This document shows positions 9,944 to 46,411 of a stretch of DNA of 64,000 bases, one piece after another. Location: contig JAJYMY010000001.1 of NCBI GenBank assembly GCA_021786575.1, positions 1-64,000 on the forward strand, read 5' to 3'. Within the stretch, counting starts at the first letter, position 1; every line of letters begins with the position of its first letter. This DNA is from an archaeon. Its GTDB lineage: Archaea; Thermoproteota; Nitrososphaeria; Nitrososphaerales; Gagatemarchaeaceae. The position numbers were made by a program, and so were the translations under genes. Below the pieces are notes generated by a model. It did no database searches, was not told the origin of the DNA, and saw only the letters and a list, made by a program, of their open reading frames with translations.

Positions 9944-10138
9944 CAGACTGAGCCCAGTCAATACGCTTCTAAGGATCCGGAGCAGATCCAGTGTCTGGGA
10001 GCTTCTTCCCTTGTATGCCTTGGGGGTTGGGCAAAGCAGCGTACGGTTCGCACGAATAAGTGCATATCAGGGCAGATGAAGGCAACTAAGGTTGGAACAG
10101 TCTCTTTTTACCAAACGAAGTTCATTACGTGCTTGAAT

Positions 10139-10150
10139 TGCCCCGGCCGG
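10139..10150 (+). other. Putative attachment site (left end of integrated element)
   Basis: TGCCCCGGCCGG here is identical, and in the same orientation, to 23929-23940, which is the 3' end of tRNA-Glu. It lies 15 bases before the integrase start. A partial copy of a tRNA 3' end beside a tyrosine-integrase gene is the classic mark of archaeal site-specific integration. The repeat is short, so erosion or chance is possible. Confidence 0.55.
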
Positions 10151-10165
10151 ATGTAGCCTGGAGCG

Positions 10166-11527
10166 ATGGCCAAGCCCAGGCTCGAAAGGTACCCTTCGTT
10201 AAAAGCCGCCGGCCCCCTCTACTGCATGACCCCGGACGACATCCACGACTATCCTTACCAGCTGAGGAACGCGGAGAGCAGGCTGGAGCGCGACGCCAAA
10301 GTCCGCCCGCGGGACAAGAAGCTGATACAGGCGTTCATGAGGCAGGTGAAGGCCCAGGGGGTCTCAGTCGGGCGCCAGGCCAAGTACGTCAACACCCTGA
10401 CGACCGTCGCCCACCACATGAGGGTCCCCTTCCGCAGGGCGAAGAGGAGGGACATCGAGGACCTGATGACCCGGCTGGCGGACCACGAGTTCACGAAGAG
10501 GAACTGGGACGGGACCGAGAACAGGCGCCACTACTCCGCCGAGACCATGGCAGACTTCAAGATCATGGTCAAGCGGTTCATGAAGTTCGTCAGGTATGGC
10601 GACACCGACAAGGACACCCCCTACCCCGAGGAGGTGAGGTGGCTCAGGAAGACCATCAAGGCGAGCGAGAGGCAGGAGCCGCTCTTCTTCACGGACGGGG
10701 AGGTCCACGCGCTGATCAAGGCTGCTTGCACGACGAGGGACAAGGCGCTGATCTCTGTAGCGGCTGAACTCGGGGTGCGGGTCAGCGAACTGCTCCTCCT
10801 CAAGGTGGGGGACGTCCAGTTCGACGACGCCGGGGCCCTGGTGCATATTCGCAGGGGGAAGACCGGGGCCAGGACGCTGAGGCTCATCGCCTCCGTCGAC
10901 CATCTCGCGCGGTACCTCGAGACGCACCGGTTCCGGGGCGACCCTAACGCCCCTCTCTGGCTGACCCTGAGCCTGAACCACCTCGACGAGTCCCTTGGGT
11001 GGAAGGCGTGCGCCGCGATGCTCAAGGACGTCGCGAGGAAGGCGGCCATCCAGAAGCCGAGGGTCCACATGTACATGTTCAGGCACGGGTCGGCGACGAG
11101 GAACCCGAAGTTCCTGACCGACTCCGAGCTCAGGCTGATGTATGGGTGGTCGATGAGCTCCAGGACCCCGGCGACCTACATCCACCTTTCTGGCGGAGAC
11201 CTGGACAGGAAGTACCAGGCGGTCTACTCCGGGAAGCCGGTGGAGCCGCCGAAGCCGGAGTTCGCCCCGGTCATCTGCCCGAGGTGCAAGGAGAAGGCGT
11301 CGCCGGGGATGGCGTACTGCCCGAAGTGCGCTACGCCGTTGGACCGGTCTGAGAGGGCGAAGATGGCCATTCAGGAGGAGAGCACCAGGAGGGAGGTATC
11401 TGAGCTCAGGGGACTGCTTGAGAAGTACCTTCACGATCCTGCCGCCAGGAACGGTTCGGCGCCGGATGCTCCGGCCCCCGAGAGCCCCGAAGGGAAGAAG
11501 GAACCCGACGAGAGAGGACCACGTTGA
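10166..11527 (+). CDS. Tyrosine recombinase/integrase with C-terminal zinc ribbon
   Basis: 453 residues. A SAM-like N-terminal core-binding region (about 45-150) is followed by the catalytic domain. Catalytic residues: Arg205 in GVRVSELLLLKVGD, Lys232 in RRGKTGARTLR, Arg306 in MYMFRHGSAT, Trp328 in GWSMSS at the His/Trp position, and nucleophile Tyr338 in TPATYIHLSG. The first residue of the HxxR box is Tyr303 instead of His. A zinc ribbon follows (Cys371, Cys374, Cys385, Cys388), then a short helix and a proline-rich tail. Such enzymes integrate and excise elements at tRNA genes. It sits beside the left attachment-like repeat. Its TGA stop overlaps the TTG start of a J-protein gene. Confidence 0.9.
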   Translation: MAKPRLERYPSLKAAGPLYCMTPDDIHDYPYQLRNAESRLERDAKVRPRDKKLIQAFMRQVKAQGVSVGRQAKYVNTLTTVAHHMRVPFRRAKRRDIEDLMTRLADHEFTKRNWDGTENRRHYSAETMADFKIMVKRFMKFVRYGDTDKDTPYPEEVRWLRKTIKASERQEPLFFTDGEVHALIKAACTTRDKALISVAAELGVRVSELLLLKVGDVQFDDAGALVHIRRGKTGARTLRLIASVDHLARYLETHRFRGDPNAPLWLTLSLNHLDESLGWKACAAMLKDVARKAAIQKPRVHMYMFRHGSATRNPKFLTDSELRLMYGWSMSSRTPATYIHLSGGDLDRKYQAVYSGKPVEPPKPEFAPVICPRCKEKASPGMAYCPKCATPLDRSERAKMAIQEESTRREVSELRGLLEKYLHDPAARNGSAPDAPAPESPEGKKEPDERGPR

Positions 11528-11984
11528 CGAGCTTCTACGAGGTCCTTGGGGTGCCCAGGACTGCTTCAAGAGACCAGATCAACGACGCATTCAGGGAGAT
11601 CGCACTCCATACCATCCAGACAGGAACAAAGACGAGGACGCGAGCAGGAGGTTCGCAGGGACGAGCGAGGCATACGCCGTCCTGTCCGACCCGCAGAGAA
11701 GACGCCTGTATGACGTCCTGGGCCCGGACAAGTACGACGACCCGCTGGAGGTCCTCTTCTACAGGCTGAACCAGGAGGCGGGGAGGCGAGAAGAGGAGAG
11801 GGAGTACAGCGCCCGCGCCTCGGCGATGCAGTACGACGCCGCCTATTCTACGGGCATCCTCGTCTTCTTCCTCCTCGTGCTCGACTTTTTCATCCCTTCG
11901 TGGGTCTTGGGCCCATGGTTCTATGTGTTCAACGCCTTCCTCATACTCGCGATAGCGGTCGGCGTTCGCGATTCCTTCAGATGA
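11524..11984 (+). pseudogene. Frameshifted membrane-anchored J-domain protein
   Basis: The first frame begins at TTG 11524 and encodes a J-domain start, SFYEVLGVPRTASRDQINDAF. One base is missing at about 11608. The next frame supplies the HPD tripeptide region YHPDRNKDEDASRRF and then [17 protein letters not shown]. After about 50 further residues two hydrophobic segments follow (TGILVFFLLVLDFFIPSWVL and WFYVFNAFLILAIAVGV), so the intact protein would be about 153 residues with the J-domain in the cytoplasm. J-domains stimulate Hsp70 ATPase. No slippery sequence is evident, so this is a mutation or an assembly error. The gene overlaps the integrase stop and was probably co-transcribed. Confidence 0.72.
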
Positions 11985-12040
11985 GTTGACGACCGCATTC
12001 CGAATAGTTTCGCTCTGGCGTCCCCAGCTATGGGCGGTCC

Positions 12041-12412
12041 TTGGAATCATATTCATCAGATTCTCTTGGGGCGGCCCTCCGGTTGCGTGATTACAGCAGA
12101 TTCAGGATAACCGTCCGGGGCGAGCTGAGATTCGCCTCGTTCTTTCAGAACCTCCGGGACAAGGAGCTCAAGAAGAGGCTCGACGACGTGTTGAACGTGC
12201 TGAAGGAGCATCCAGACGCAGGGGACCTCGTGGAGAGGTCGCTGTGGCCAGAGGAGTACCAGAAGATGGAGCTCAGCAACCTCTTCAGGATAGAGGTGGG
12301 CAGGAGCCAGCGTATCTCCTACACCATCCGGATTGAAGGGGACAGCCTGGACATCGATGTGATCGAGTTCTTCAGGACCCACAAGGACTACGAGAAGAGA
12401 TTCCACTACTAG
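12041..12412 (+). CDS. RelE/ParE-superfamily-like small protein
   Basis: 123 residues from a TTG start; a later TTG at 12086 is also possible. The predicted strand/helix order and the closing IEFFRTHKDYEKRFHY, together with FRIEVGRSQRISYTI, resemble RelE/ParE-fold ribonuclease toxins. No antitoxin gene is adjacent in the usual arrangement. It converges on a small winged-helix gene, with the two stop codons sharing the CTAG at 12409-12412. Assignment is by fold-like pattern only. Confidence 0.5.
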   Translation: MESYSSDSLGAALRLRDYSRFRITVRGELRFASFFQNLRDKELKKRLDDVLNVLKEHPDAGDLVERSLWPEEYQKMELSNLFRIEVGRSQRISYTIRIEGDSLDIDVIEFFRTHKDYEKRFHY

Positions 12413-12669
12413 CGAAGCTTGACGCTCCGGTCGAAGAGCTCCCTGAGCTTGGGGTTGTCTGTCGCCACCCAGACGATCCTGTTGTCCTTGCCGTAGATGA
12501 TCTTGTTGGATGCTTCGAGGTAGTCCAGAATCTGCTTGAACGTCTGGTACTCCATCCCCTTCGGCAGCGAACGCCAGAGTTGCATCCTGGTCGGATACTC
12601 CGCCTTCTTGATTGTGTCTACTATCTGTTTCTCCACCATCAGCATCGTGCCCAGCTTGGGTGAGTGCAT
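12409..12669 (-). CDS. Small winged-helix DNA-binding protein
   Basis: 86 residues. EKQIVDTIKKAEYPTRMQLWRSLPKG followed by YQTFKQILDYLEASNKIIYGKDNRIVWVA reads as a helix-turn-helix with a beta wing. I chose the ATG at 12669 rather than the upstream ATG at 12708 because the latter lies inside a TATA box (12707-12713). A start near 12669 leaves a leader of roughly 16 bases. It probably regulates genes of the integrated element. The target is unknown. Confidence 0.65.
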   Translation of the reverse strand: MHSPKLGTMLMVEKQIVDTIKKAEYPTRMQLWRSLPKGMEYQTFKQILDYLEASNKIIYGKDNRIVWVATDNPKLRELFDRSVKLR

Positions 12670-12706
12670 CGAATCCGCCCTCGTATGCTCTTGCACACCA
12701 AGAGTC

Positions 12707-12713
12707 ATATAAA
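12707..12713 (-). promoter_or_regulatory. TATA box of the small winged-helix gene
   Basis: The minus strand reads CTTTATATG. Transcription would start about 25 bases downstream (near 12685), just before the ATG at 12669. Confidence 0.5.
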
Positions 12714-12756
12714 GTTATGTAATCCTGCCGTGGAGGGCCCGTCCGGGGTGGAGCGG

Positions 12757-12876
12757 TCAGGCGCCTTGCGCGCCGCGGTTCTCCAGTCTGGAGAGAAGCT
12801 CTAAGATCCTATCGAGGTCAGACCTCTTGACAGAGACGAATTCCTCTGCCGGGGCGGACTGCCTGGTCTAGCTCAT
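12757..12876 (-). pseudogene. Short coiled-coil ORF interrupted by an in-frame TAG
   Basis: Reading from ATG 12876: Met-Ser, then TAG (12868-12870), then an open frame with clear protein character, EEFVSVKRSDLDRILELLSR and LENRGAQGA, to a TGA at 12757-12759. A TATA-like GTTAAATAC lies about 25 bases upstream, so the promoter looks intact. No ATG, GTG or TTG follows the TAG. Either the gene is dead at its third codon or translation starts unusually. The function of the 39-codon product is unknown. Confidence 0.4.
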
Positions 12877-13063
12877 GTGCAAGTGGAGCCCGACTGTATT
12901 TAACGAGAAAAGACTCGGGATGGAAGCGCGGGCCTGTCCCTCGTCATCACACTACATGTACATAGTGTCCAACAGCGGGACAAGCTAACCATGTGTGGAG
13001 AAGCATAATCGCTCCTGATGCTAATTCATTCCCCAAATAGCAACCAAGTTCTTCTCAAACTCC

Positions 13064-13315
13064 ATGAGCAATTCGAGCATCCCATCGAACGAAAGGGTCG
13101 CGGTTTTCCTGCATAATGGGACGATAATAGAAGGGTTTGTACTTGAAAGAACCGAGAGACATGTGAGGCCCAGAGACGCCTTCGAGATCCTTGAAGAGAA
13201 GGTCACCGGCCCTCTTGGCGAAGTCTACGGGAGAGGGCTATCGAGGGGAAGGGTCAAGATACCGTTCACCAGTATCTCACATTGGTTGACCCTCACCGAC
13301 GTCGGGTTGAACTAG
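13064..13315 (+). CDS. Small protein with Sm-like beta-barrel pattern
   Basis: 83 residues. RVAVFLHNGTIIEGFVLERTER resembles the Sm1 motif (strand, Asn-Gly-Thr turn, Gly-x-Val strand). KIPFTSISHW near the end could be the closing strand. It is not a canonical archaeal LSm protein and the middle region is unusual. It lies alone in the element with no operon partner. Function unknown. Confidence 0.4.
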   Translation: MSNSSIPSNERVAVFLHNGTIIEGFVLERTERHVRPRDAFEILEEKVTGPLGEVYGRGLSRGRVKIPFTSISHWLTLTDVGLN

Positions 13316-13380
13316 TCATCTGCTGAAAACGTGGGAAGAACCGAAGACTTATCGCCGCCTTCTTTCCATTCTCAGATTTG

Positions 13381-13566
13381 ATGATTTGCCAAGCAATTGA
13401 GGTGGTCGGGGGTTTAGTCACTCTGATGTTGTGCGTGGGCATCGCTTCAATATTTGGAGCAGGGTTACTCTCGTCCATTTTGTCGGTCAACGGGTCGTTA
13501 GGTTTAGGCATGTTGGCTTTCGTGAGCATCTACGCTGTGGCGAGAATCCGCAACCTAGGTCGGTAG
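13381..13566 (+). CDS. Small two-helix membrane protein
   Basis: 61 residues with two hydrophobic segments (IEVVGGLVTLMLCVGIASIFGAG and LGLGMLAFVSIYAVA) and a basic end, RIRNLGR. No family recognised. Composition suits a real membrane peptide, but short hydrophobic frames can arise by chance. Confidence 0.4.
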   Translation: MICQAIEVVGGLVTLMLCVGIASIFGAGLLSSILSVNGSLGLGMLAFVSIYAVARIRNLGR

Positions 13567-13780
13567 CATCGCTCTAGGGTTGTGCCTGAGGATAGCCGGG
13601 GCGCCTAACGCCGCGCTTAGGGTTCACAATGCCTCTGCCGGGATTAACGACGACGGGGTCAAAATCCCTTCAGCAGACGAGTCATCTTGCGGGCGGCTCA
13701 TTGGATTTTCAGCTAGGCCGGGAAGTCTGGTCCGCATGCTGGATTCAAAGCAAAGAAGAAACTCTCGTCATTGCACTCAG

Positions 13781-15631
13781 TCAAGCCACGAAGATGGCGT
13801 CCATGTAAATGTCGCCACTGTATCCTCCATTGTAGGATACCGTTACCTTGACGTATTGGATATTGCTCACTGACGCTATGGTTATCCAGGTAGGGGTATT
13901 TCCTGATGAAGGGTTCCATGTGTTGGTATACACCGTTGTCCAGGAGCTGCCCGTACTCGATACCTGGACAGTGACGTAGCTGTAGTACGCGCCGCCACCA
14001 TTGTTGTAGGAGTATCCGTCAATCACCAATTCCCCGCTATACAGAGTGCCGAAGTTTCCTTCTACCCAGGCGGAGTCACCTGAGTTGGGCGCGTGCAGGT
14101 TTGTGTAAGCGGAGTCAGGTATTCCCACGATGTCGGTAGGATTGGTCACAGTTCCCCCTCCTGTGGTCCCATAGCCACCGGTAGGCTGGCTCTGAACATA
14201 TGAGCCGACAAAGATACTTATCGCGTCGACGTAGATCTTAGCTGACAACCCGCTATTGTCAGAAACGGTAATCTTGACGTATTCTATTCCTGTAACGCTC
14301 GCAATGGGGATATAAGTGGGCGTATTACCTGAGGACGGGTCCCAGGTAGCTGAATAAACGGTGGTCCAAGAACTGCCGGTGGCAGATACGGCAACTTGGA
14401 CGTAACTGTAGTACGCTCCTCCTCCGTTGTTGTACGAGTACCCGTAAATCGCTATGGTGCCATTGTATTTTGCTCCGAAAGATCCTTCATCATATGCGCT
14501 GTCTCCTGAATTGGGAGCTGCCAGTACCGCATAATTGCCATCAGGCTCGCCCACTATGTAGCTTGGATTTGTAACGGAGCCCCCGGAAGCGCCTGAAGTG
14601 ACGTAAGAGGTAACAAATGACCCCGCTAGGTAGGTCTGGTCATAGCTTGTACCGCTCCCTGAGAGATTCGTGTACTGTGCGTTCGAGTATTCAGCTGTGA
14701 CCACGATAATGCAACTACTTGACCCGCAGTTGAACATATGTACGCCCGTGTAGTCCATGTCTCCTGCTCCAGAGTACATGTTGCCGTAGGTGTAAGCTAA
14801 GGGACCAGATTCGGCTCCGGCCCAGACGCTCTGGGCGTAGACATCGGTCATGCTTATGCACGGTGCGGTGCATCCGAAGACGTTCGAGGAGGTCCATGTC
14901 ATCTTGAGTACGCCGTTCAGTTCAAACTCGATTGTGTTAAAGTCGCTACTCGTCGTGGTAACTAACCACTCGAAACTATCCCCGGGCGCGGTAAGGCTGC
15001 TACATGAAAAGGAATACTTGCTCGTTGATGGGCTTCCTGTGGAACTTTGAGCGTGCGCGTAGCAAGAATTGCTGACCGTGTCAAATTCGATTACCGCTTG
15101 AATCATAAAATTGGAATCTTTGGGAAATACGATATTCCACTGATACGAGAATTGACCATCGTTGGGTGTGCAAGCAGGGTTTGCGCACGAACTGCCTGCG
15201 AGGTCATTGTATGCAGTATTCGTCAAGTCAACATAGACAGTCGTTGTCGATCCCGTGAAGTTGACTAGGACGTTGGGATCATTGGGATCGGCTTTTGACC
15301 AGTGCTTCCATGTCGCTCCAGCGGGGACTGGCACTGGAGGGCTGGGTTGAACGGCATAAGCAGGAGATGTGCCGTTGTTCTTGCTGGTTCCTCCAGTCGC
15401 AGTTGTGGAGTTGGAGCCACTAGGTGCGCCCCCATGGCTAGTCCCATTATCGGAGTGCGAAACGACGGTGGAAGACTGTAGCGAATACATCGAGCTTGGT
15501 TGTGTCACGTTCGGAGTGGGCTGCGCCGAAACGAAGGGAACGCTAGCCAAGGGCGCGAACAGGAGCAGTGATATCGCCAAAATATTGAAACCCAGACCAA
15601 ATGTGACCTTGGTCTGCGGATATCTTTCCAT
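13781..15631 (-). CDS. Secreted protein with two tandem discoidin-like domains
   Basis: 616 residues. I chose the ATG at 15631 because it has a strong GGAGGAG site 5 bases upstream, and the sequence then opens with a signal peptide (FNILAISLLLFAPLASVPFVSA). A Ser/Thr/Asn-rich linker, a central beta-rich domain (about 110-340), then two 123-residue repeats (about 352-474 and 494-616) follow. Each repeat contains GYSYNNGGGAYYSYV, SSWTTVY, PSSGNTPT and a final strand ending in DAI, a jelly-roll pattern like discoidin/F5-8C carbohydrate-binding domains. It is probably exported and binds glycans or surfaces. Base composition is more AT-rich than core genes, as expected in the integrated element. 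No C-terminal anchor is present. Confidence 0.75.
   Translation of the reverse strand: MERYPQTKVTFGLGFNILAISLLLFAPLASVPFVSAQPTPNVTQPSSMYSLQSSTVVSHSDNGTSHGGAPSGSNSTTATGGTSKNNGTSPAYAVQPSPPVPVPAGATWKHWSKADPNDPNVLVNFTGSTTTVYVDLTNTAYNDLAGSSCANPACTPNDGQFSYQWNIVFPKDSNFMIQAVIEFDTVSNSCYAHAQSSTGSPSTSKYSFSCSSLTAPGDSFEWLVTTTSSDFNTIEFELNGVLKMTWTSSNVFGCTAPCISMTDVYAQSVWAGAESGPLAYTYGNMYSGAGDMDYTGVHMFNCGSSSCIIVVTAEYSNAQYTNLSGSGTSYDQTYLAGSFVTSYVTSGASGGSVTNPSYIVGEPDGNYAVLAAPNSGDSAYDEGSFGAKYNGTIAIYGYSYNNGGGAYYSYVQVAVSATGSSWTTVYSATWDPSSGNTPTYIPIASVTGIEYVKITVSDNSGLSAKIYVDAISIFVGSYVQSQPTGGYGTTGGGTVTNPTDIVGIPDSAYTNLHAPNSGDSAWVEGNFGTLYSGELVIDGYSYNNGGGAYYSYVTVQVSSTGSSWTTVYTNTWNPSSGNTPTWITIASVSNIQYVKVTVSYNGGYSGDIYMDAIFVA
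13784..14152 (-). repeat. Discoidin-like coding repeat 2
   Basis: Encodes the second of two 123-residue repeats of the secreted protein. It shares GYSYNNGGGAYYSYV and the PSSGNTPT motif with the first repeat, 426 bases away. Confidence 0.8.
14210..14578 (-). repeat. Discoidin-like coding repeat 1
   Basis: Encodes the first 123-residue repeat of the secreted protein. The DNA has diverged more than the protein, so the duplication is not recent. Confidence 0.8.
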
Positions 15632-15847
15632 CGTACTCCTCCTGTGGAACATAATCAATGCATATTTTTTGCACTGGACTGAATATAAAATTGGAGCTTA
15701 CACTGTATTACTTTGTACGACCGTGGCTGAGCTGTGAAGGTCAAACGCTGCAAGCTGGAGATTGCCGTGAAGCCATGGTGCCAACGCCCGCACCTGAATC
15801 ATTAGCGTCGTCTCGGGCAGGAAGATCCTGATGTTCATTTCAACACC

Positions 15848-16576
15848 TTACTGCGTGGAGTTGGTTGCCCCCGTAATCTCTGTGAAGATGTATCCTGAAG
15901 GGTATGATGCAGAGCCGCCGCTCCCCCCTGAAATCATCGAGCAGAGTGCACTGTAAGTGTAGTCGGGCAAGCCATTCCCAACAAGGAGGACGAACTCCTC
16001 ATTACATTGAGTTTTCCCTGGCAGCAGCCAGCCCAAGTTGAGCCCGAACTTTCCACTTGTCCCTTGGTTGGGAGTGATGCTGAAGATGACGGCGGCTCCC
16101 TCGTTCTGGTTTTCTTGTCCGCCTATGGTTATGGTTGCCGCGGATGAAGTCATGGTGAAGTTGGACCTGGCGTTGAACACCGCGCTCGTCCCGTTAGGAT
16201 ATGTCTTCATACCAAGGATGCTGACCTCATTCAGCGGGTTCAACGTCAACGTCGACGTTTGGTTGTAGTAGTAGATTTGGACGCACAGGAGTGCTGGAGA
16301 CTGCGAATCAGCTTGAAGTTTGAAGGCAAACGGAGTGGATTCAACAGCTGTGGCACACAATCCCGTTCCCGAACTGGTTGACAGAGTCGAGGAGGGAAGA
16401 GACGAAGTTGTCGAAGAACTCGACTTGGAGGAGGCAAGTGAACTGGAGCTTGCAGGCGCGGTTCCAGACCGAGTAGAATAGGCTGCAATCGCGGTCGCCA
16501 GGACGATTACCGCTGCCACCGCCAAGACGTCAGCCACATGTTTCCGCGATATTCCTTGCCTGCTACTGGCGTTCAT
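15848..16576 (-). CDS. Membrane-anchored extracellular protein, unknown function
   Basis: 242 residues. A short basic N-terminus and one hydrophobic helix (VADVLAVAAVIVLATAIAAYS) are followed by a long Ser/Thr linker (about 40-70) and a beta-rich domain with several Asn-x-Ser/Thr sites. The pattern is a surface protein held by an uncleaved signal anchor. Its ATG overlaps the stop of the upstream gene (ATGA), so the two are translated together. No family recognised. Two cysteine pairs may form disulfides outside the cell. Confidence 0.6.
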   Translation of the reverse strand: MNASSRQGISRKHVADVLAVAAVIVLATAIAAYSTRSGTAPASSSSLASSKSSSSTTSSLPSSTLSTSSGTGLCATAVESTPFAFKLQADSQSPALLCVQIYYYNQTSTLTLNPLNEVSILGMKTYPNGTSAVFNARSNFTMTSSAATITIGGQENQNEGAAVIFSITPNQGTSGKFGLNLGWLLPGKTQCNEEFVLLVGNGLPDYTYSALCSMISGGSGGSASYPSGYIFTEITGATNSTQ

Positions 16577-17319
16577 GATGTCTCCACCTCAGATGCGAAT
16601 TGACTCAACGGAGTTCCTGACGCTTTCACTGGGAGCCACGCGTCAGCTTGTGTGTAGACATTGTCCAGTGAGAAGACGTTCCCTCCCCGCACCACGAATG
16701 TACCTTGTGGTCCACCCACCGAAATCAGCGGAGTGCCAAAGGCGCTGTAGTATTGCGCGAGGAACGACCCTGGATCGCCCAAGAAGAACACGTACTCGCT
16801 GCCAACGGTGAGAGACGGATAGCCCTCTAGGTTCATGGTGGTTCCGTTGTAAGTTCCGCCTATTTGGGACATGGATAGGATTGTCCCTGCGGATATGTTT
16901 GAGTTGGACTTTATCGAAGTCAGAATTGTGAGATTGTAGTATGTAACTGGTACGCCACGGACTCCGACTATTTTCGCGCCCGTTACGTTTGCCTCAACTA
17001 TGAGCTGCGACGCTGCGGTCAAATCTGCGAGAGTCTGATAGATCTGCCAGGGAGGGTTTATGGTGCAGTTCCCGTTACAAAGTGAAGGATCGATGGAGAA
17101 GGTAATTTGTGTATTTAGAGAAGTCTCTGTGGAAGCAGACTCCCCAGGCCCGGTCACAGTAGTTGTCGGAGTGCCCACATAGCTTGTTCCTGAGAGAGGA
17201 GCGAGATAGCCTGCAAAAGCGGCTAAGGCGAGCGCCCCAATTATCGCCACGGTCACGCCGGCAGTCACTTCCTTACGATATTCCGACAATTTTTTGTCGC
17301 TCGCCCCTAGGCTGGTCAA
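16573..17319 (-). CDS. Membrane-anchored extracellular protein, unknown function
   Basis: 248 residues with an N-terminal anchor helix (VTAGVTVAIIGALALAAFAGYLA) followed by a Thr/Ser-rich linker and a beta-rich exterior. It contains LTVGSEYVFFLGDP and a Cys pair (CNGNC near residue 80). The start is TTG. It shares an operon, by a 4-base overlap, with the similar anchored protein downstream. It is divergent from a gene encoding a winged-helix protein with membrane helices, which may sense or control this pair. Confidence 0.6.
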   Translation of the reverse strand: MTSLGASDKKLSEYRKEVTAGVTVAIIGALALAAFAGYLAPLSGTSYVGTPTTTVTGPGESASTETSLNTQITFSIDPSLCNGNCTINPPWQIYQTLADLTAASQLIVEANVTGAKIVGVRGVPVTYYNLTILTSIKSNSNISAGTILSMSQIGGTYNGTTMNLEGYPSLTVGSEYVFFLGDPGSFLAQYYSAFGTPLISVGGPQGTFVVRGGNVFSLDNVYTQADAWLPVKASGTPLSQFASEVETS

Positions 17320-17415
17320 TCCCCCGGTTAGTGCTACGCTTTAGGACGTGTCCGCGCGCAGGCATCCTAAACATTAGGACTATAGGGACTATTCACCTGG
17401 GTAGGAGGGGGACCT

Positions 17416-17847
17416 TTGGCGGACTCGGCTTTCAAAGAAGTATCAGACGCAGATTCGCTCAAGGGAACCACGTTGAGAGTCTACCGCCTGATGCTCCGTT
17501 CAAAGGCGCCTCTCGGGATTCATGACGTTCAGCGTAGTCTTGGGCTTAGTTCGCCGTCAGTAGCCCAATACCACGTTAGGAAACTGGTGAATCTCAAGCT
17601 AGCCCGGGAGGAAGGTGACGGCTACGTCGTCGACAGGGTCGTTGTGGACAACGTGATTCGATTACGGAGAACAAACATACCCACTCAAACTGCCTTCGTT
17701 GCATTCTTCGTGATGTCTTTGTTCGTGATGCTAACCTTTTTTCGGCCACCAGTCTTGTCGGCGGGCTACCTTTTTGCATTGTTTGTAGTCGTCGTCGGGA
17801 TTGTAATCACCTCGTATGAAACGGTCAGGACTTTCGGACGAGTATAA
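17416..17847 (+). CDS. Winged-helix regulator with two membrane helices
   Basis: 143 residues. The N-terminal winged helix reads LRVYRLMLRSKAPLGIHDVQRSLGLSSPSVAQYHVRKLVNLKLA. Two hydrophobic segments follow (TAFVAFFVMSLFVMLTFF and GYLFALFVVVVGIVITSY). Such membrane-tethered regulators are common in archaea. The TTG start at 17416 follows a strong GGAGGGGG site. Divergence from the anchored-protein operon suggests that operon as its target. Confidence 0.7.
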   Translation: MADSAFKEVSDADSLKGTTLRVYRLMLRSKAPLGIHDVQRSLGLSSPSVAQYHVRKLVNLKLAREEGDGYVVDRVVVDNVIRLRRTNIPTQTAFVAFFVMSLFVMLTFFRPPVLSAGYLFALFVVVVGIVITSYETVRTFGRV

Positions 17848-18217
17848 CGCCTAGTGCGGACTACGCCAGCACGTGGAGTTTCAAAGGACCTGCGGTCTCT
17901 TCTGCTGTGCAAACCACATTCGGAGCCCTAGTAGAATTTGGCGACCAGGGCCTGATTCATCTGAATAGACCCGTTTTGGGGATGCCATAGTTCAGGAGTC
18001 TTGCAAGGATTGCGTCGGAATTGGCGCAAAGAGTGCGTGGCCCGTTCGCCAGTAGAGATGGGTTCGCTTTCCGAGTTCTTTTGCAATTCCAGAAACGAAA
18101 CCCTAGAGTAATCGGAAAGCCTAACGAACCAGACTGGACCTTGGTTGACCACGACTCGGTGAACAAGAACGAGGGTCTTAAATGCGACGTTTTACACAGT
18201 GGCAAGAAGTATTATTC
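17848..18217. other. Intergenic, no gene seen
   Basis: No convincing coding frame. A TATA-like TCTTAAATG near 18175-18183 probably drives the next plus-strand gene, whose likely start is 18218. Confidence 0.45.
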
Positions 18218-18745
18218 ATGCAAAGTCGTAAGGAAGTAAGGGCGTTTAGGTTGGACGGGAACTTGCTTCGCATGTTGGCGCTGTCCGCTCAGAGACGTGG
18301 AATAAGCGAAAATGCAGTGGTCGAAGACGTACTCCTCAGAAACCTAAAAGCTGAAACACTGGCTGAGGCCTTTGATCGAATCAGCTTCGGGAAAGAGACT
18401 TTTCGATCGATTATAGGAATGACAGATGCGAATGGACTGGAGATTATGGGAAGCGAACGGGGGGGCAAGGCATATTCCCTCGCTCGCGAATTGTCCGAGA
18501 GTCAGGGCCAACCGCTCACCTTCTCACAATACTTGACTGAAATCTTGGGAAGCCAGGGGCGCTGGTTCAAAGTAGAGGGGGCGCTTGTCAAGCCAGAGAA
18601 GGTGACACTGTACCATGGCATGGGTCCAAAATGGTCATCGTTCTTAAAGAGCTACCTGGCCAGCGCCTACGCGACTACTTCAAGAACCGGGTTGCAGCTT
18701 AAAGGGGATGGTGATTTCGTAAGCGTCGAATATAGCCTGAGTTGA
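18218..18745 (+). CDS. Protein with ribbon-helix-helix-like N-terminus
   Basis: 175 residues. The start reads SRKEVRAFRLDGNLLRMLALSAQRRGISENAVVEDVL, a beta strand plus two helices as in ribbon-helix-helix DNA-binding proteins. The remaining 120 residues (including FSQYLTEILGSQGRWFKVEG and SSFLKSYLASAYA) are not recognised. The ATG at 18218 is preferred because a TATA-like element sits about 40 bases upstream, which would place the alternative ATG (18182) before the transcript start. It is probably a regulator of the element. Confidence 0.55.
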   Translation: MQSRKEVRAFRLDGNLLRMLALSAQRRGISENAVVEDVLLRNLKAETLAEAFDRISFGKETFRSIIGMTDANGLEIMGSERGGKAYSLARELSESQGQPLTFSQYLTEILGSQGRWFKVEGALVKPEKVTLYHGMGPKWSSFLKSYLASAYATTSRTGLQLKGDGDFVSVEYSLS

Positions 18746-19228
18746 GAAAGGCCACTCGAAGTGGGACACCAGGAGGTTCCAGAGGATCCTATCGAAGAGG
18801 CCAGGAGCGGATTATACCGCGCGCGAGGGCATTTGAAGATGTCTTAGAGCGCCCCAGCCGGGAATCTCTGCTTATTGACATCAGGCCTCGAAGCTGGACA
18901 GGTTGGCATTTGATGGGTTCCTAGGCATCGAAAATGGACAGCAGATGAAAGCCCATCCAGGCACCGCTTGCCGGACAGAGCCACTGCTGGTATCGTACGT
19001 TTTCAAGGCTCTACCCGGAATTCGACTGTCCGTCCGATTCGAGGCTTGCCAAAACCTCAGTACAAGGAACTGTCCGGTTCGAGGCCCGTAATGCAGCGGA
19101 GTACCCTGTTTGACTTGGACACCGTTCGACACATGCTTATACTGTCAAGTGGTTTGCCACTGGTTCCCTTCCACACCACCGCAGCAGCACGGCGACGTCC
19201 GCGCTCATTTCGCAGTCCTTAGTCAGAA
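18746..19228. other. Intergenic, no gene; minor repeats
   Basis: About 480 bases without a convincing gene. CTGTCCG followed by TTCGAGGC appears twice (near 19025-19045 and 19070-19084). The stretch leads into the repeat cluster at 19229. Confidence 0.4.
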
Positions 19229-19355
19229 TTTGGCAACCTCACATGTCAGTTAGCAACCTTGGCCTGCAGGGTTGCCATTTCAGCCCCTAAGGGTTGCCAA
19301 AATCGGGTAGAAAGCGACGTTTCGGTTGACAACCCTGCGATAGATTTGGCAACCC
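19229..19355. repeat. Cluster of six GGCAACCC/GGGTTGCC sites
   Basis: Six related short sites in 127 bases: TTTGGCAACC (19229), GTTAGCAACC (19249), GGGTTGCCATTT (19269), GGGTTGCCAAAA (19291), the near-palindrome GGTTGACAACCC (19324) and TTTGGCAACCC (19345). Sites occur in both orientations with spacings of about 20-33 bases. A TTAAATA element follows at 19369. A seventh site lies at 19537. The layout resembles iterons of a replication origin or multiple operator sites for an element-encoded DNA-binding protein. Confidence 0.75.
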
Positions 19356-19723
19356 TTCGTAGGCGCGTTAAATACCGGGGGCGCATAATGAAGCGTCTAA
19401 CTCAGTTTCTCTCTCTGGGCTGAAATACGACGACGAAAGGAATGTTGGCGCCTAGGGACGGCCTTGAAAGAGCATCCTAGGACGCCATAGGGCCAATAGG
19501 TACCAACGATTGGTTGTTCGCAGCCCTCAGCTGGCAGGGTTGCCAGGGATTTCGTTGCGGATATTTCCCGCCAATCTCCCAATATATTTTTTGAACGATC
19601 TTTTCCACCAAGGACCCCACTTGGTCCAACCTGCCTCCCAAGCGACTGGGACTGTCGCCTGGAGCGAATCAGAATAGGCGACACTTACTGCAGCCATCCT
19701 CCACCCCGAGGGCCACCGATACT
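19356..19723. other. Non-coding stretch between repeat cluster and Spo11-like gene
   Basis: No plus- or minus-strand gene is convincing. Two TATA-like elements face each other (TTAAATA at 19369 on plus; AAAATATATT near 19582-19592 on minus), so a non-coding transcript is possible. The only other structure is the inverted repeat at 19531-19546. Confidence 0.35.
19531..19546. repeat. Inverted repeat containing the GGGTTGCCA site
   Basis: CTGGCA-GGGT-TGCCAG is a perfect 6-base inverted repeat holding a seventh copy of the GGGTTGCCA motif. A minus-strand TATA-like run (about 19582-19592) lies 40 bases away, so it may sit in the leader of a transcript. Confidence 0.6.
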
Positions 19724-21313
19724 CTAATGATCCAATATGGCTCGGAGCTTCCCTGCCCATTCATTCCTGAACCCTTCGAGCCTCTCCCGGTTCGCCTCCC
19801 ACTTTCCCTTGTCCATCATCCCCGAGATGGCCTTCTCGACGAGATCCAGCAGGAGCGCGGGCTCCAGCGCGTCCAGCTCCCACACCTCCTCGCCGTACAG
19901 CTTTTTGTAGGCCCGCGACTTCTGCCCGAGCTTCTTCATCTTTGACGGAGGGAGGTGCAGCTGCTGGGCCTGCTCGAAGGTCAGGGCGATCCGCTGGACT
20001 TCGATGTCTAGGTCCTTCCCCTTGGCATGAGCGTACTCGTCCAGCCTGGTCGTCAGCTTCTCCTGTATGTGCAGCCCGGAAGGGTCGTGGTCCCCGAGGT
20101 AGAGGATGCGGACCTTCTTCCCCCTTGGGAACCTGTCGAGGGCTTTCGCCACCTGGGTGTAGGAAGAGTAGCCGCGTCCCACGATCAGGTTGACGTTGTA
20201 TCGCTGGCATATGGGATAGACCACCCTCGAGAGGGCCTCCTTCTCTATCCAGACTTCGGGGTAGCCCGGCTGCTCGTGCCAGGCGTTGACGTTGAGGCCC
20301 GTGATGAGGTCTTCCACCTGGCGCCTCAGCTCCCTCATGGGGTCGTCCTCCTCGGGGTCGTTGAAGTACTCTGGGCGGGACATGTCGATTATCCTCTCGT
20401 AGTCTATCTCCCCCTCCAGCCTCCCTTCGACCAGGGCCTTGCTGAAGTGGCCGTAGGACGACCTCGAGTTCGGGTACCCCTTCTTCGCCACCATCTGGTA
20501 GAAGAGCTGGCGGATGGTGAACAGCATCTCTGGGTGCTGGTCCATGTACTCCTTGACGGCGGAGACGATGTCTGCCCTGGGGAGCCCGGCCGTGGTCAGG
20601 ACCCTCGACACCGAGCGCATCACCCTCCCTATGTCGTCATAGAACGGCCCGATGTCCAGCTGCCCCTTGGCGGGGTTCTGCCAGCGGATCGAAGGGGAGA
20701 CGAGGTGGATCATGGCACCGAGCCTCTTCTCCTGGAGCAGGTTCGTCAGCCTCATCACCCTGTCCTCGCTCCGCTGTTTCGAGTAGACGTAGCCTGAGAA
20801 GGGGGAGCCCAGAGCGGCGGTGAAGTTGATGCACTCGGAGAGGCTAGGGGACTTCGCCTCCATGGCAGCCGCTTCGACTACATAAGGCACCCTCACTTCA
20901 CCGTCCGTGAAGACCCCCGCCTTCTGGGCGTACCTGGTGAAGCCGTAGCGCTCGAACGCCTCCCTCCCTACGCGGGGGAGGGCGACCGGGCCCATGCTCC
21001 TCGCGCGGGCCCTCATGGCGTCGAAGAGGCTTCTGGCCTGCGAGTCCGAGAGCTGGGAGACGTCGGCCCTGTCTTCTATCCCCGCGTCCTCCCTCACGCC
21101 GCGGGCTACGACCGTCCCCCTGAGCCCCTTGAACTCCCTGATCATGCTCGAAGCCGACACCCCTTTGGCCTCGGTCAGGAGCTGTCTGAACTCCTGGAAG
21201 GCGTAGGTCCTGATGTCGGGGGAGATGGCGCGGGGAGGCTCGGCCCTGCCCTCGTTCGGCCCCCAGAACTCGGCTTTCCCGCAGAGGTCGCAGACACCCA
21301 ATTGCTGCACCAT
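19724..21313 (-). CDS. Fusion of a Top6B-transducer-like region with a Spo11/Top6A-like (Mini-A type) cleavage module
   Basis: 529 residues. C-terminal half: the winged-helix segment TIRQLFYQMVAKKGYPNS supplies a candidate catalytic Tyr272, as in the 5Y-CAP domain of Spo11/Top6A. It is followed by a Toprim fold with Glu357 in VWIEKEAL and Asp408/Asp410 in LYLGDHDPSG. This arrangement matches Mini-A, the stand-alone Top6A relatives of mobile elements. N-terminal half: VPYVVEAAA (about 142-150), INFTAALGSPFSGYVY and IHLVSPSIR with Lys216 then a long helix parallel the Top6B transducer (PFLVEVGVA, LFRFANRIPLLY, THIASTRIPYKTVGK with its helix) in the same order. No GHKL ATPase motifs are present. 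A CxxC (Cys8, Cys11) lies at the start. The ATG at 21313 follows a GGAAGGT site. It probably makes DNA double-strand breaks in transactions of the integrated element. The transducer match is my reading and needs profile confirmation. Confidence 0.72.
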   Translation of the reverse strand: MVQQLGVCDLCGKAEFWGPNEGRAEPPRAISPDIRTYAFQEFRQLLTEAKGVSASSMIREFKGLRGTVVARGVREDAGIEDRADVSQLSDSQARSLFDAMRARARSMGPVALPRVGREAFERYGFTRYAQKAGVFTDGEVRVPYVVEAAAMEAKSPSLSECINFTAALGSPFSGYVYSKQRSEDRVMRLTNLLQEKRLGAMIHLVSPSIRWQNPAKGQLDIGPFYDDIGRVMRSVSRVLTTAGLPRADIVSAVKEYMDQHPEMLFTIRQLFYQMVAKKGYPNSRSSYGHFSKALVEGRLEGEIDYERIIDMSRPEYFNDPEEDDPMRELRRQVEDLITGLNVNAWHEQPGYPEVWIEKEALSRVVYPICQRYNVNLIVGRGYSSYTQVAKALDRFPRGKKVRILYLGDHDPSGLHIQEKLTTRLDEYAHAKGKDLDIEVQRIALTFEQAQQLHLPPSKMKKLGQKSRAYKKLYGEEVWELDALEPALLLDLVEKAISGMMDKGKWEANRERLEGFRNEWAGKLRAILDH

Positions 21314-21458
21314 CGCCGGCAGACCTTCCGATTTACGCGTTCGTGGTCGCTTCAAGCGGAAGTGCGTTGGGCGAGTAGTCTCTTCGAACCCCAGTCGATG
21401 CCCTCTTAAGGACGCCTTTCCCTGTTCGCACTCGACAACAACCTTGCCTGCAGAGAAG

Positions 21459-21701
21459 ATGAAAGGCGGAAGAGCAATAGAGAAGGTGAAGAAGCTCCTT
21501 CCCAACAGCGCGGAGCTGGACCTTTCACTACCCCTGTTCGCGAAACTTCGTCTGAAATGGGAAAGGGAAGCGGGCCGCCCGCTGACGGACCAAGAAGCGC
21601 GGGACCATATCGTCGTCTACCTGCGAACCAGACCCGTGGTCACTCAACGGAGGTCCCCAAGACGGTCGATCACTGTGGGTAATACCGAGTACGTCGTGTG
21701 A
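21459..21701 (+). CDS. Small basic protein divergent from the Spo11-like gene
   Basis: 80 residues: a basic start KGGRAIEKVKKLLPNSAEL, a likely helical core FAKLRLKWEREAGRPLTDQEARDHIVVYL, and an Arg-rich end. Basic and helical, it may bind nucleic acid. ATG 21459 is preceded by an AGAGAAG site. The divergent promoter region (21314-21458) is shared with the Spo11-like fusion, so the two may be co-regulated. No family recognised. Confidence 0.5.
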   Translation: MKGGRAIEKVKKLLPNSAELDLSLPLFAKLRLKWEREAGRPLTDQEARDHIVVYLRTRPVVTQRRSPRRSITVGNTEYVV

Positions 21702-21777
21702 TGGGTCTCTATAGTACGGTCGTGACTCCTCCATCCTTAACCAACGTTTTTATCAGAAAGGGGCTCTCTTCGTTTTC

Positions 21778-22110
21778 ATGGCGAAGGCAAGACGGATGGC
21801 GTGGGGCAGACGCAAGTCGGATAACCAGCCTTATCCCAAGAGCGGAGGAGGAAAGCAAGGGAGCGTCGCCCACCGCGACAGGAACTCGATGTCCGGGACG
21901 AGAAGGCGCAAGTTCCAGGACAGCGCCTTATTCGACCTAAGCAAAGAGAACCATGTCAGACTCGAAGCAGCCAAGGACTTGGGGCTAATCGCTGCCGAAA
22001 GGAATCTTGCGGCCCGAAAAGTGAAGGATGCGTACGACATGGCGGACGCTCTCGAAAGACTCAGAACTGGAGAAAGGAAGCCCCTCATCGATAAGATAAG
22101 GGATAGATAG
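21778..22110 (+). CDS. Small basic hypothetical protein
   Basis: 110 residues. The first 45 are very basic and glycine/serine rich (KARRMAWGRRKSDNQPYPKSGGGK). The rest is helical (RLEAAKDLGLIAAERNLAARKVKDAYDMADALERL). A TATA-like TTTTTATC at about 21748-21755 sits 25-30 bases before the ATG, so the mRNA is probably leaderless. The architecture suits a nucleic-acid-binding protein of the element. No family recognised. Confidence 0.55.
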   Translation: MAKARRMAWGRRKSDNQPYPKSGGGKQGSVAHRDRNSMSGTRRRKFQDSALFDLSKENHVRLEAAKDLGLIAAERNLAARKVKDAYDMADALERLRTGERKPLIDKIRDR

Positions 22111-22135
22111 TCGTGTTCCTTCTGAGGCAGGCATA

Positions 22136-22513
22136 TTGCCGAGGTTTACAGACTGGCAGTTACTCAAGACCAGGCATGAACATTGGGCCTATAAGGAGGA
22201 CATCGAGGATAATGGTCCAGCGTGTTACGAACTTGGAATACGCAAGCTCGCGGGGCAAATTCACACTGTCTACGTAGGACACGCTACAAATCTGAGGAGC
22301 AGGATGCACAGCCACGCGATAGGCGACAACACCACCAAGAGGTTCATGGCGAAGAGTGTCACCAACGGCTTCCAGGTGTGGTTTCGGTTTCACCGGATGA
22401 CGTTCCCATTTCAAGCCGAGGTCCTTGAGACTAGCCTCATTCACAAATTCTGGTGGAAGTACCCCTGGAACAAGGTGGGGTCCCCATGGCATCCCATACA
22501 CCCCCCAAGATGA
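22136..22513 (+). CDS. GIY-YIG-like nuclease domain protein
   Basis: 125 residues. GPACYEL then HTVYVGHATNLRSRMHSHAIG matches the GIY-YIG core (a variant of GIY, then YVG, then the Arg of the first helix). The pattern continues with ETSLIHKFWWKYPWNKVG, where a catalytic Glu (E of VLETSLI) and the closing N are expected. Such domains cut DNA in mobile elements and repair. The start is TTG at 22136. The TGA stop (22511-22513) is followed in the same frame, without another stop, by the small membrane protein. Confidence 0.68.
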   Translation: MPRFTDWQLLKTRHEHWAYKEDIEDNGPACYELGIRKLAGQIHTVYVGHATNLRSRMHSHAIGDNTTKRFMAKSVTNGFQVWFRFHRMTFPFQAEVLETSLIHKFWWKYPWNKVGSPWHPIHPPR

Positions 22514-22519
22514 GCTGAA

Positions 22520-22819
22520 CTGAGCCAGTTATCACTCCTAGTTGGGGCGGCCGGCATACTCCTGAGCTTCTCAGGCTCGGTCGTGATAGCCCTCCCCCTC
22601 TTCAGGAAGAAAGAAGTGGAGATTCTTAAGGACCATGTGAAGCGTGACTCCGCAAGACCAGCGTACTATGACGGCGGCGACGCAGACGACTGGCCTAACC
22701 ATCCGGTCTGGAAGTCCTTCCAGGCACAGAGGAAGTATGCTCAGATTGGGCTTAGCATACTTGGGCTGGGCATAGCCCTGCAGATGGCCTCCATATACCT
22801 CCAGGCAACCCTGGGCTGA
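22520..22819 (+). CDS. Small membrane protein, possible CTG start
   Basis: Between the GIY-YIG stop and GTG 22583 the frame is open and encodes the first half of a membrane helix (LLVGAAGILLSFSGSVVIALPLF), so a start at GTG 22583 would truncate it. The only near-start codon upstream is CTG at 22520, giving about 99 residues. A second hydrophobic segment (IGLSILGLGIALQMASIYL) is near the end, with a charged loop between. Either the gene starts at CTG or it is made by TGA readthrough of the preceding gene. Function unknown. Confidence 0.5.
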   Translation: MSQLSLLVGAAGILLSFSGSVVIALPLFRKKEVEILKDHVKRDSARPAYYDGGDADDWPNHPVWKSFQAQRKYAQIGLSILGLGIALQMASIYLQATLG

Positions 22820-22920
22820 CAGGCAGGCGCAGTAGCAAACCCTATAGCGCTAGCGGGCATCGTCCCGTCAGGAAGGGAGTCGGGGCTCAGAAGGTAGACC
22901 GCCGAGAGGCCTCCGGCCGT

Positions 22921-23163
22921 TCATTCCTTGGGAGGGTGCAGATTCGAAATCATCGAGAGACCGAGTGAAAACAGTGCCCCGAACAGGAAGACAGCCACAG
23001 TGTCGAAGGGGATTCCAGAGTTGATGTAAATTTGATTCTGAGCGGGACCAACGGTGAGGACGTAAGAGGTGTTTGTGACATCTAGATACCCGAACCATGC
23101 GCCGAGAACACCTCCAACGAATGTGAATATTCCTGCGAGAACACGATAACGGCGACGACTCAA
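22921..23163 (-). CDS. Two-helix membrane protein
   Basis: 80 residues: a basic start SRRRYR, a helix AGIFTFVGGVLGAWFGYL, an exposed loop of about 30 residues, a second helix FDTVAVFLFGALFSLGLSMI and a short end. It lies 6 bases after the upstream anchored protein gene, forming a small operon. No family recognised. Confidence 0.55.
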   Translation of the reverse strand: MSRRRYRVLAGIFTFVGGVLGAWFGYLDVTNTSYVLTVGPAQNQIYINSGIPFDTVAVFLFGALFSLGLSMISNLHPPKE

Positions 23164-23169
23164 CCTGTG

Positions 23170-23676
23170 CTAACCCGTCTCAAAGTTGAAGAGCCCATTT
23201 AATCCGCTCGAAGACGCCGGAAACGTGAAGGATTCACCGTTCTTCAGATAGACTATCGCCAAAAGCGTCCCTGCTGAAGATGTGTCCTTGATTTTGAAGC
23301 TGAAGTCGAACGGGAGCGAGAGAAGACGAATACAAGAAGTCGAGTTAATCGCGTAACCACTGCATGTAGTGCCTTGGGGAGCCTGATAACCTATTCCGAT
23401 GCCGAACTTTATCCCAACGGATGAACCAGACCCGTAGTAACCAGTATTCAGCGGAACCCCTGCCAAAGTCATGTTTGCCACCCATTTGTCTTTGGCAATT
23501 GGAACACAATGGAAGCAGCTTATGGTGAGGTTGTCGAGTATCTGACTGTCGTTCGTGACTTGGACATTAATCGAAGGACCGGCAGGGAGAGTCTCATAGA
23601 TGGTCGACGCGACAGCAGCGACCGCCACCACCACCAAAAGGAAATCGGCCTTCGCGCTCTTCCTGACCTTTACCAC
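23170..23676 (-). CDS. Membrane-anchored extracellular protein, unknown function
   Basis: About 168 residues from GTG 23676 (RVVKVRKSAKADFLLVVVAVAAVASTIY), where a basic start leads straight into a signal anchor. The exterior is beta-rich with Asn-x-Ser/Thr sites and two cysteine pairs (SCFHC and the pair in TTCSGYAINSTSC). The overall plan resembles the anchored proteins at 15.8-17.3 kb in the same element. A longer frame extends upstream but its first 44 residues look non-coding. The start is uncertain. Confidence 0.5.
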   Translation of the reverse strand: MVKVRKSAKADFLLVVVAVAAVASTIYETLPAGPSINVQVTNDSQILDNLTISCFHCVPIAKDKWVANMTLAGVPLNTGYYGSGSSVGIKFGIGIGYQAPQGTTCSGYAINSTSCIRLLSLPFDFSFKIKDTSSAGTLLAIVYLKNGESFTFPASSSGLNGLFNFETG

Positions 23677-23764
23677 GCGAATTGGACGGGAGGATGATAC
23701 AAAACTTTGACGGTCAAGTCGTGATTTACCCCAGACTCTGCCGCAATAAACAGCGGACGCCTTA

Positions 23765-23784
23765 GGCGGGGAGTCATCCCCGCC
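23765..23784. repeat. GC-rich hairpin near the element's right end
   Basis: GGCGGGGA-GTCA-TCCCCGCC is a perfect 8-base stem with a 4-base loop. A further palindrome (CCCCATGGGG) follows some 25 bases on. They lie between the last element gene and tRNA-Glu and could be a terminator-like or recombination-related structure. Confidence 0.45.
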
Positions 23785-23928
23785 CACCCCAGGCGCACCA
23801 TGCCCCATGGGGTATCATCCCCGAAGCGTTAAGTGCGGCCTCCGGGATCCAGCATTTGCGTTCGAATCCCTAACCGCACAGACCCTAGGGATTAGCACCC
23901 AGCGGGGATTAGGAGGCGTGGGTTAATA

Positions 23929-23940
23929 TGCCCCGGCCGG
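23929..23940 (+). other. Putative attachment site (right end, in tRNA-Glu)
   Basis: TGCCCCGGCCGG, the complement of the tRNA-Glu 3' end, matches 10139-10150 exactly and in the same orientation. The tRNA stays intact at this end, as expected after integration at a tRNA 3' end. Confidence 0.55.
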
Positions 23941-24038
23941 GATTCGAACCCGGGTCGCCGACTCGAAAGGCCGGCATACTCTCGACACTTTGGGTTTGAC
24001 CGGGCTTTACGCCCTTGCGGACTCTATACTACCGGGGC
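23930..24038 (-). tRNA. tRNA-Glu(UUC) with two introns in the D-loop region
   Basis: Acceptor GCCCCGG (24038-24032) pairs with CCGGGGC ending at 23930. The T-arm is CCGGG-TTCGAAT-CCCGG. The anticodon arm is CCGGC-CUUUCGA-GUCGG with anticodon UUC. The D-arm GUAU...GUAU is interrupted twice. Intron 1 (about 24023-24005, 19 nt) folds as GUCC-GCAA-GGGC with an AGA bulge before and an AAG bulge after a 3-bp helix, a relaxed bulge-helix-bulge. Intron 2 (about 23996-23981, 16 nt) is less clearly structured. Removing both gives a normal Glu tRNA. CCA is not encoded. The 3' end coincides with the right attachment-like repeat of the integrated element. Confidence 0.82.
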
Positions 24039-46399: not shown

Positions 46400-46411
46400 T
46401 GCCCCGGCCGG
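46400..46411 (+). repeat. Third copy of the tRNA-Glu 3'-end 12-mer
   Basis: TGCCCCGGCCGG, identical to 10139-10150 and 23929-23940. Here it lies between tRNA-Asn and the metallo-hydrolase-like gene. It could be an old attachment remnant or chance. Confidence 0.4.

Follow-up and report, generated by a model that had tools for sequence, protein, structure and literature searches.

Within the 64,000-nucleotide window analyzed here (contig JAJYMY010000001.1, positions 1 to 64,000, from an archaeon of the Gagatemarchaeaceae), one open reading frame was initially annotated as a transducer-only Top6B region fused to a Spo11/Top6A-like cleavage module. This raises the question of which parts of a type IIB topoisomerase the encoded protein contains, and what such a protein might do without an ATPase.

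The gene is genuine. It consists of one intact open frame of 529 codons. Codon usage is coding-like in the N-terminal as well as the C-terminal part (+0.44 to +0.53 bits/codon, GC3 0.88-0.90), while the two other frames on the same strand score negative. A Shine-Dalgarno-like motif precedes the start codon (Table 1).

Table 1. Features of the fusion gene, of the element that carries it and of the host comparator (window coordinates).
Feature	Position	Strand	Basis
Fusion gene, [H2TH + probable diverged transducer] - [Mini-A: winged helix + Toprim]	19724..21313	-	
SD-like GGAAGG	21324..21329	-	10 nt 5' of ATG at 21313; read from sequence
Top6B-type H2TH domain, residues 25-107	20993..21241	-	BLASTP, Top6B profile, hhalign, AF2, Foldseek
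Transducer position, residues 108-243	20585..20992	-	colinear with Top6B transducer; alone not significant
Mini-A catalytic region, residues 245-529 (winged helix + Toprim)	19727..20581	-	phrog_6247, tblastn, alignments, tree
Tyr272 codon, proposed catalytic tyrosine	20498..20500	-	conserved Y of [TS]xRQxxY in two alignments
Glu357, Toprim acidic residue	20243..20245	-	invariant in viral Mini-A alignment
Asp408/Asp410 of GDHDPSG, Toprim metal-binding residues	20084..20092	-	at least 90% conserved, viral Mini-A alignment
Integrated element, 13.8 kb	10139..23940	.	direct repeats at both ends; synteny
Left att repeat TGCCCCGGCCGG	10139..10150	+	12-bp direct repeat
Tyrosine recombinase (integrase) with zinc ribbon, adjoining left att	10166..11527	+	PF00589 4.5e-12
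Right att repeat, 3' end of tRNA gene	23929..23940	+	12-bp repeat; G006 contig breaks
Intron-containing tRNA gene, integration site	23929..24038	-	kept in 4 relatives
Host's own Top6B (comparator, outside element)	52741..54270	-	PF09239 3e-54

The C-terminal half (residues ~245-529) matched phrog_6247, 'DNA topoisomerase', at 2e-59. A tblastn search with the fusion protein retrieved 76 phage and 35 plasmid records, in each case through the C-terminal half only. These included LC711082, 'Topo Mini-A' (6e-25), and Pseudomonas phage NP1 (5e-24), which is the Mini-A example drawn in PMC7614492. The residues pointed out initially, Tyr272 in TIRQLFYQM, Glu357, and Asp408 and Asp410 in GDHDPSG, are located as claimed. 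Across 34 viral Mini-A relatives, Y272, E357, D408 and D410 are conserved, so that the proposed catalytic tyrosine is retained in homologues; the alignments also show R268 and K358 to be conserved. Because of the phrog_6247 match, the named Mini-A matches and the conservation in the alignments, the cleavage module represents a described family and no new nuclease. Judged by its sequence, the C-terminal half is almost certainly a Mini-A and belongs to a Top6A/Spo11-like family already known from phages and mobile elements. The Mini-A family was defined by Takahashi et al. 2020 (according to the reviews PMC7614492 and PMC8185306), and no function is known for it (PMC8185306, PMC8084294). In an 88-row tree, the Mini-A part of the fusion protein formed a long, deep branch (length 1.72), with the viral contigs L055, L054 and L057 as the nearest rows by path, and the relationship of the catalytic part to Top6A is remote (BLASTP 0.91). 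A likeness to JetD/Wadjet, which extends over no more than a part of the catalytic region (E 0.0005), was set aside. We know of no catalytic activity of a Mini-A protein.

The N-terminal half turned out differently from what the initial annotation had proposed. Significant Top6B homology lies in an H2TH domain (residues ~25-107) that had been overlooked, and the description as 'transducer-only' is unsupported. BLASTP gave 8.5e-6 against the Top6B L024 (residues 26-121), and 0.023 against the window's own Top6B, where exactly the H2TH domain was matched. A profile built from 24 Top6B sequences detected the fusion protein with 5.6e-6, and hhalign gave P 3.5e-5. The Top6B H2TH profile scored 15.5 bits, a value that was reached by none of the 916 shuffles scored by HMMER (of 2000 generated), and the fusion gene was the top non-Top6B match of this profile when 1660 ORFs were ranked. 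The homology begins at the PP linker, which in Top6B comes after the GHKL domain, and runs past the H2TH domain as far as Top6B 309-325, the first transducer helix. When AF2 was supplied with one Top6B row, residues 31-106 were folded (pLDDT 54-91 as 10-residue block means) and Foldseek of the model returned Top6B first (probability 1.00), then the Fpg H2TH, though, with that Top6B row in its alignment, the model is not an independent test of the hypothesis. A tblastn search with the N-terminal half over 300 genomes yielded three weak matches besides two identical copies. One of the three (L013) is a genuine Top6B; the other two (L012 and L014, the latter among unrelated-looking ORFs) were left unused. 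We are confident that residues ~25-107 form a Top6B-type H2TH domain.

Residues 108-243 occupy the position of the transducer. The order of segments is colinear with Top6B, from the PP linker and the H2TH domain through the first transducer helix, the strand-C/switch segment and the stalk to the winged helix, with LGAMIHLVSPSIRWQNPAKGQLDI aligned against the Top6B strand-C/switch-lysine segment VGVITHIASTRIPYKTVGKEYIA. The alignment keeps a lysine at the switch-loop position. The transducer resemblances that had been listed initially (PYVVE versus PFLVE, a Phe-rich segment, HxxSxxI and a Lys) were not significant alone: of the roughly 1000-1400 shuffles scored with a profile of the transducer alone, 16-35 reached the query score, the glocal comparison gave Z 1.1, and hhalign of the transducer region alone gave P 0.16. 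The pairing of PYVVE with PFLVE is only one among several registers, and MAFFT sets PFLVE against INFTA instead. MAFFT also misplaced the Top6B rows, both beside full-length Mini-A rows and as short pieces. Structure prediction, which had been suggested as a check of the transducer region, left residues 108-243 unfolded in both AF2 models (single sequence and one Top6B row), with pLDDT mostly around 30-40 in the latter. For the N-terminal part as a whole, the values were 49.4 with the single sequence and 47.5 overall with one Top6B row, which is uninformative for the transducer. A Foldseek search with the single-sequence model was discarded as meaningless.

These results leave two main ways to read the region. 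In the first, only the H2TH domain (with its linker) derives from Top6B, residues 108-243 would be a lineage-specific domain or a long linker, and the H2TH domain would merely boost the DNA affinity of a Mini-A nuclease. The lack of significance of the transducer profile and the low pLDDT fit this reading, as does the WKxY-bearing segment of Top6B, for which the fusion-protein alignments contain no counterpart. Against it speak the homology that reaches the first transducer helix, the retained segment order and the lysine at the switch-loop position, and we consider this reading rather unlikely. In the second, which we favor, residues 108-243 are probably a diverged transducer and a short stalk that leads directly into the Mini-A winged helix.

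Concerning the ATPase, the initial annotation was correct. No GHKL match was found in the fusion protein, which contains none of the ATPase motifs, and a six-frame scan of positions 10100-24000 with the Top6B profile, which covers the element, detected none either. The genuine Top6B that had been noted in the same window belongs to the host and lies, together with an intein-bearing Top6A, 30 kb from the fusion gene. In this Top6A (window 50100-52844, minus strand), the LAGLIDADG intein (Pfam Intein_splicing 1.6e-18) follows CDADPWG, inside the Toprim region. Elsewhere in the window (41991-44189, minus strand), a 4Fe-4S NADH dehydrogenase-type subunit of the nuo operon is split by an intein-like Hint/LAGLIDADG insert.

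The fusion gene is part of an integrated element, bounded by direct repeats (Table 1). Four relatives are syntenic with the window up to ~7.2 kb and then again from 23925-23927, and in a fifth relative (L165) synteny is back at 23928. The initial proposal of a mobile-element gene that joins an ATPase-less, Top6B-derived piece to a Top6A/Spo11-like module is supported. The tRNA gene at the integration site was missed by a default tRNA scan. ARAGORN, run with introns, identified it as Gly-GCC; by eye, its 3' half is possibly Glu-TTC. A MAG from the same population, G006, is 99.97% identical over window 1-23942. Its contigs break at 23929-23942, and because it holds a different, integrase-bearing sequence there, the tRNA site is used repeatedly. 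The second G006 element at the tRNA att site, which encodes a related integrase (L159 1-2169, L166 1878-4188) and lies beside the 13.8-kb element, is a case of repeated or tandem integration. The 12-bp att core occurs a third time, without mismatch, at window 46400-46411, outside the element. The element also encodes a large, secreted-looking protein with F5/8 type C domains (13781-15658, minus strand).

The survey for other proteins of this kind covered 80 loci on viral contigs, the phage and plasmid collections and several hundred genomes from the phylum. The N-terminal arm was absent from all other Mini-A proteins examined (121 compared loci), so that the fusion is not conserved in any of them. 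The only other copy of the fusion gene is 100% identical and comes from the same-population MAG (L015 in G006), which means that the fusion represents one lineage in two near-identical MAGs. Searches with the N-terminal half identified only the identical copy in genome contigs, and nothing credible in viral contigs or, at E up to 10, in plasmids and phages; no Top6B was found in viral contigs. Beyond these two identical copies, no other case was found of this architecture, a Mini-A with a Top6B piece that keeps the H2TH domain but has no ATPase. The idea of a separate H2TH/transducer gene in Mini-A phages was rejected, as none of the genes 5' of Mini-A in Pam3, a Rhizobium phage and L006 matches Top6B. 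Those of Pam3 and the Rhizobium phage seem to belong to a single family (DUF2786-type per record), and that of L006 is primase-like by eye. Two further loci showed faint Top6B signals. A protein with GHKL-like motifs is encoded ~0.6 kb downstream of a phage Mini-A gene (L117 4364-5881), the sole such case among the Mini-A loci (Top6B profile, 0.008), and a 101-residue ORF upstream of a viral Mini-A gene (L111, from ~1957, plus strand) matched the Top6B H2TH profile weakly (0.019).

Occurrence in a single lineage, an N-terminal half without close homologue, and the long Mini-A branch (1.72) could be taken to indicate that the gene began as a Topo VI/VIII-like B-A fusion, was recently stripped of its GHKL domain and is now decaying or inactive. 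Yet the frame is intact and coding-like throughout, the Shine-Dalgarno-like motif and all catalytic residues are present, the six-frame scan shows no GHKL remnant upstream, and the catalytic half groups with Mini-A rather than Top6A, so that we regard decay as improbable. It is more improbable still that the H2TH domain, common to NFACT/RqcH, Fpg and Top6B, stems from NFACT/RqcH or Fpg and resembles Top6B by convergence: Pfam does name NFACT_N for the N-terminal half (0.0047), but the model segment concerned (162-238 for the fusion protein, 161-244 for Top6B) is what Top6B H2TH domains match phylum-wide, Top6B scores far above NFACT (15.5 versus 3.6 bits with profiles on the H2TH region, in BLASTP 8.5e-6 versus 0.007 for the best NFACT, which aligned over 37 residues), Pfam did not report its H2TH (Fpg) model for the fusion protein, and the flanking PP linker and next helix are those of Top6B.

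Taken together, the protein is probably best read as a Mini-A fused to a GHKL-less Top6B fragment (an H2TH domain and a probable diverged transducer/stalk), acting as a single-chain, type IIB topoisomerase-like enzyme of the element. In topoisomerase VI, the H2TH domain touches the G-segment, and mutating this domain abolishes nucleotide-dependent cleavage (PMC5922973). The status and position of the transducer are coupled to the cleavage competence of Top6A (PMC13040014). Mouse SPO11 cleaves DNA without partners (PMC11922746), and ATP is dispensable for DNA relaxation or cutting by two Topo VIII enzymes (PMC7614492). For the fusion protein, we see about an even chance of a dimeric, ATP-independent mechanism of breaking and rejoining, with H2TH arms gripping the flanking DNA. 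Two chains would most likely dimerize via the Mini-A part, and both strands would be cut by Tyr272 of one chain and the acidic Toprim residues of its partner, with 5'-phosphotyrosyl ends as the product. The H2TH arms would hold the DNA on either side of the cut, and the short stalk would position the winged helices. Cutting and resealing might be controlled by DNA binding or bending, instead of ATP. The enzyme may serve the DNA processing of the element itself, in replication, resolution or recombination after excision. More tentatively, it could be a single-chain prokaryotic analogue of Spo11-Top6BL, in which a GHKL-less Top6B (H2TH and transducer) joined to Mini-A makes ATP-independent, bend-controlled breaks for the element.

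Mini-A proteins occur widely in phages, and to our knowledge neither a function nor a partner has been described for them. The natural joining of a Mini-A to a Top6B fragment suggests that Mini-A can work with DNA-holding parts of the Top6B type, and without ATP. With other Mini-A proteins, the fusion protein shares a winged helix with RQxxY, the Toprim E and DxD, about 30-40% identity across the C-terminal half and the mobile-element setting (here an integrase and att repeats). The examined members, however, have about 285-340 residues and lack the ~245-residue N-terminal Top6B-like arm. Topoisomerase VIII is likewise a single chain found on mobile elements, with the B-derived part N-terminal and the A part C-terminal, but it has a GHKL ATPase (PMC7614492), whereas the fusion protein has none, keeps the H2TH domain, and has a Mini-A as its A part. 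The H2TH domain followed by a transducer-position segment, and the Spo11-type tyrosine with Toprim, are shared with topoisomerase VI, from which the fusion protein differs by being single-chain, by lacking GHKL and, in the alignments, a WKxY counterpart, and by a catalytic part remote from Top6A.

The Spo11 core complex (Spo11-Rec102 and its relatives) also combines a Top6A-like nuclease with a GHKL-less Top6B relative, in two eukaryotic chains rather than one. The parallel with Rec102 that had been drawn initially holds for the loss of GHKL only, because the B homologues that partner Spo11 in eukaryotes appear to be without H2TH (PMC11746154), which is the best-supported and provable part of the fusion protein. 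Eukaryotic Spo11 complexes arrived at such an ATP-free arrangement by GHKL loss, so the fusion offers a simple one-gene system for probing ATP-free breakage by a type IIB enzyme.
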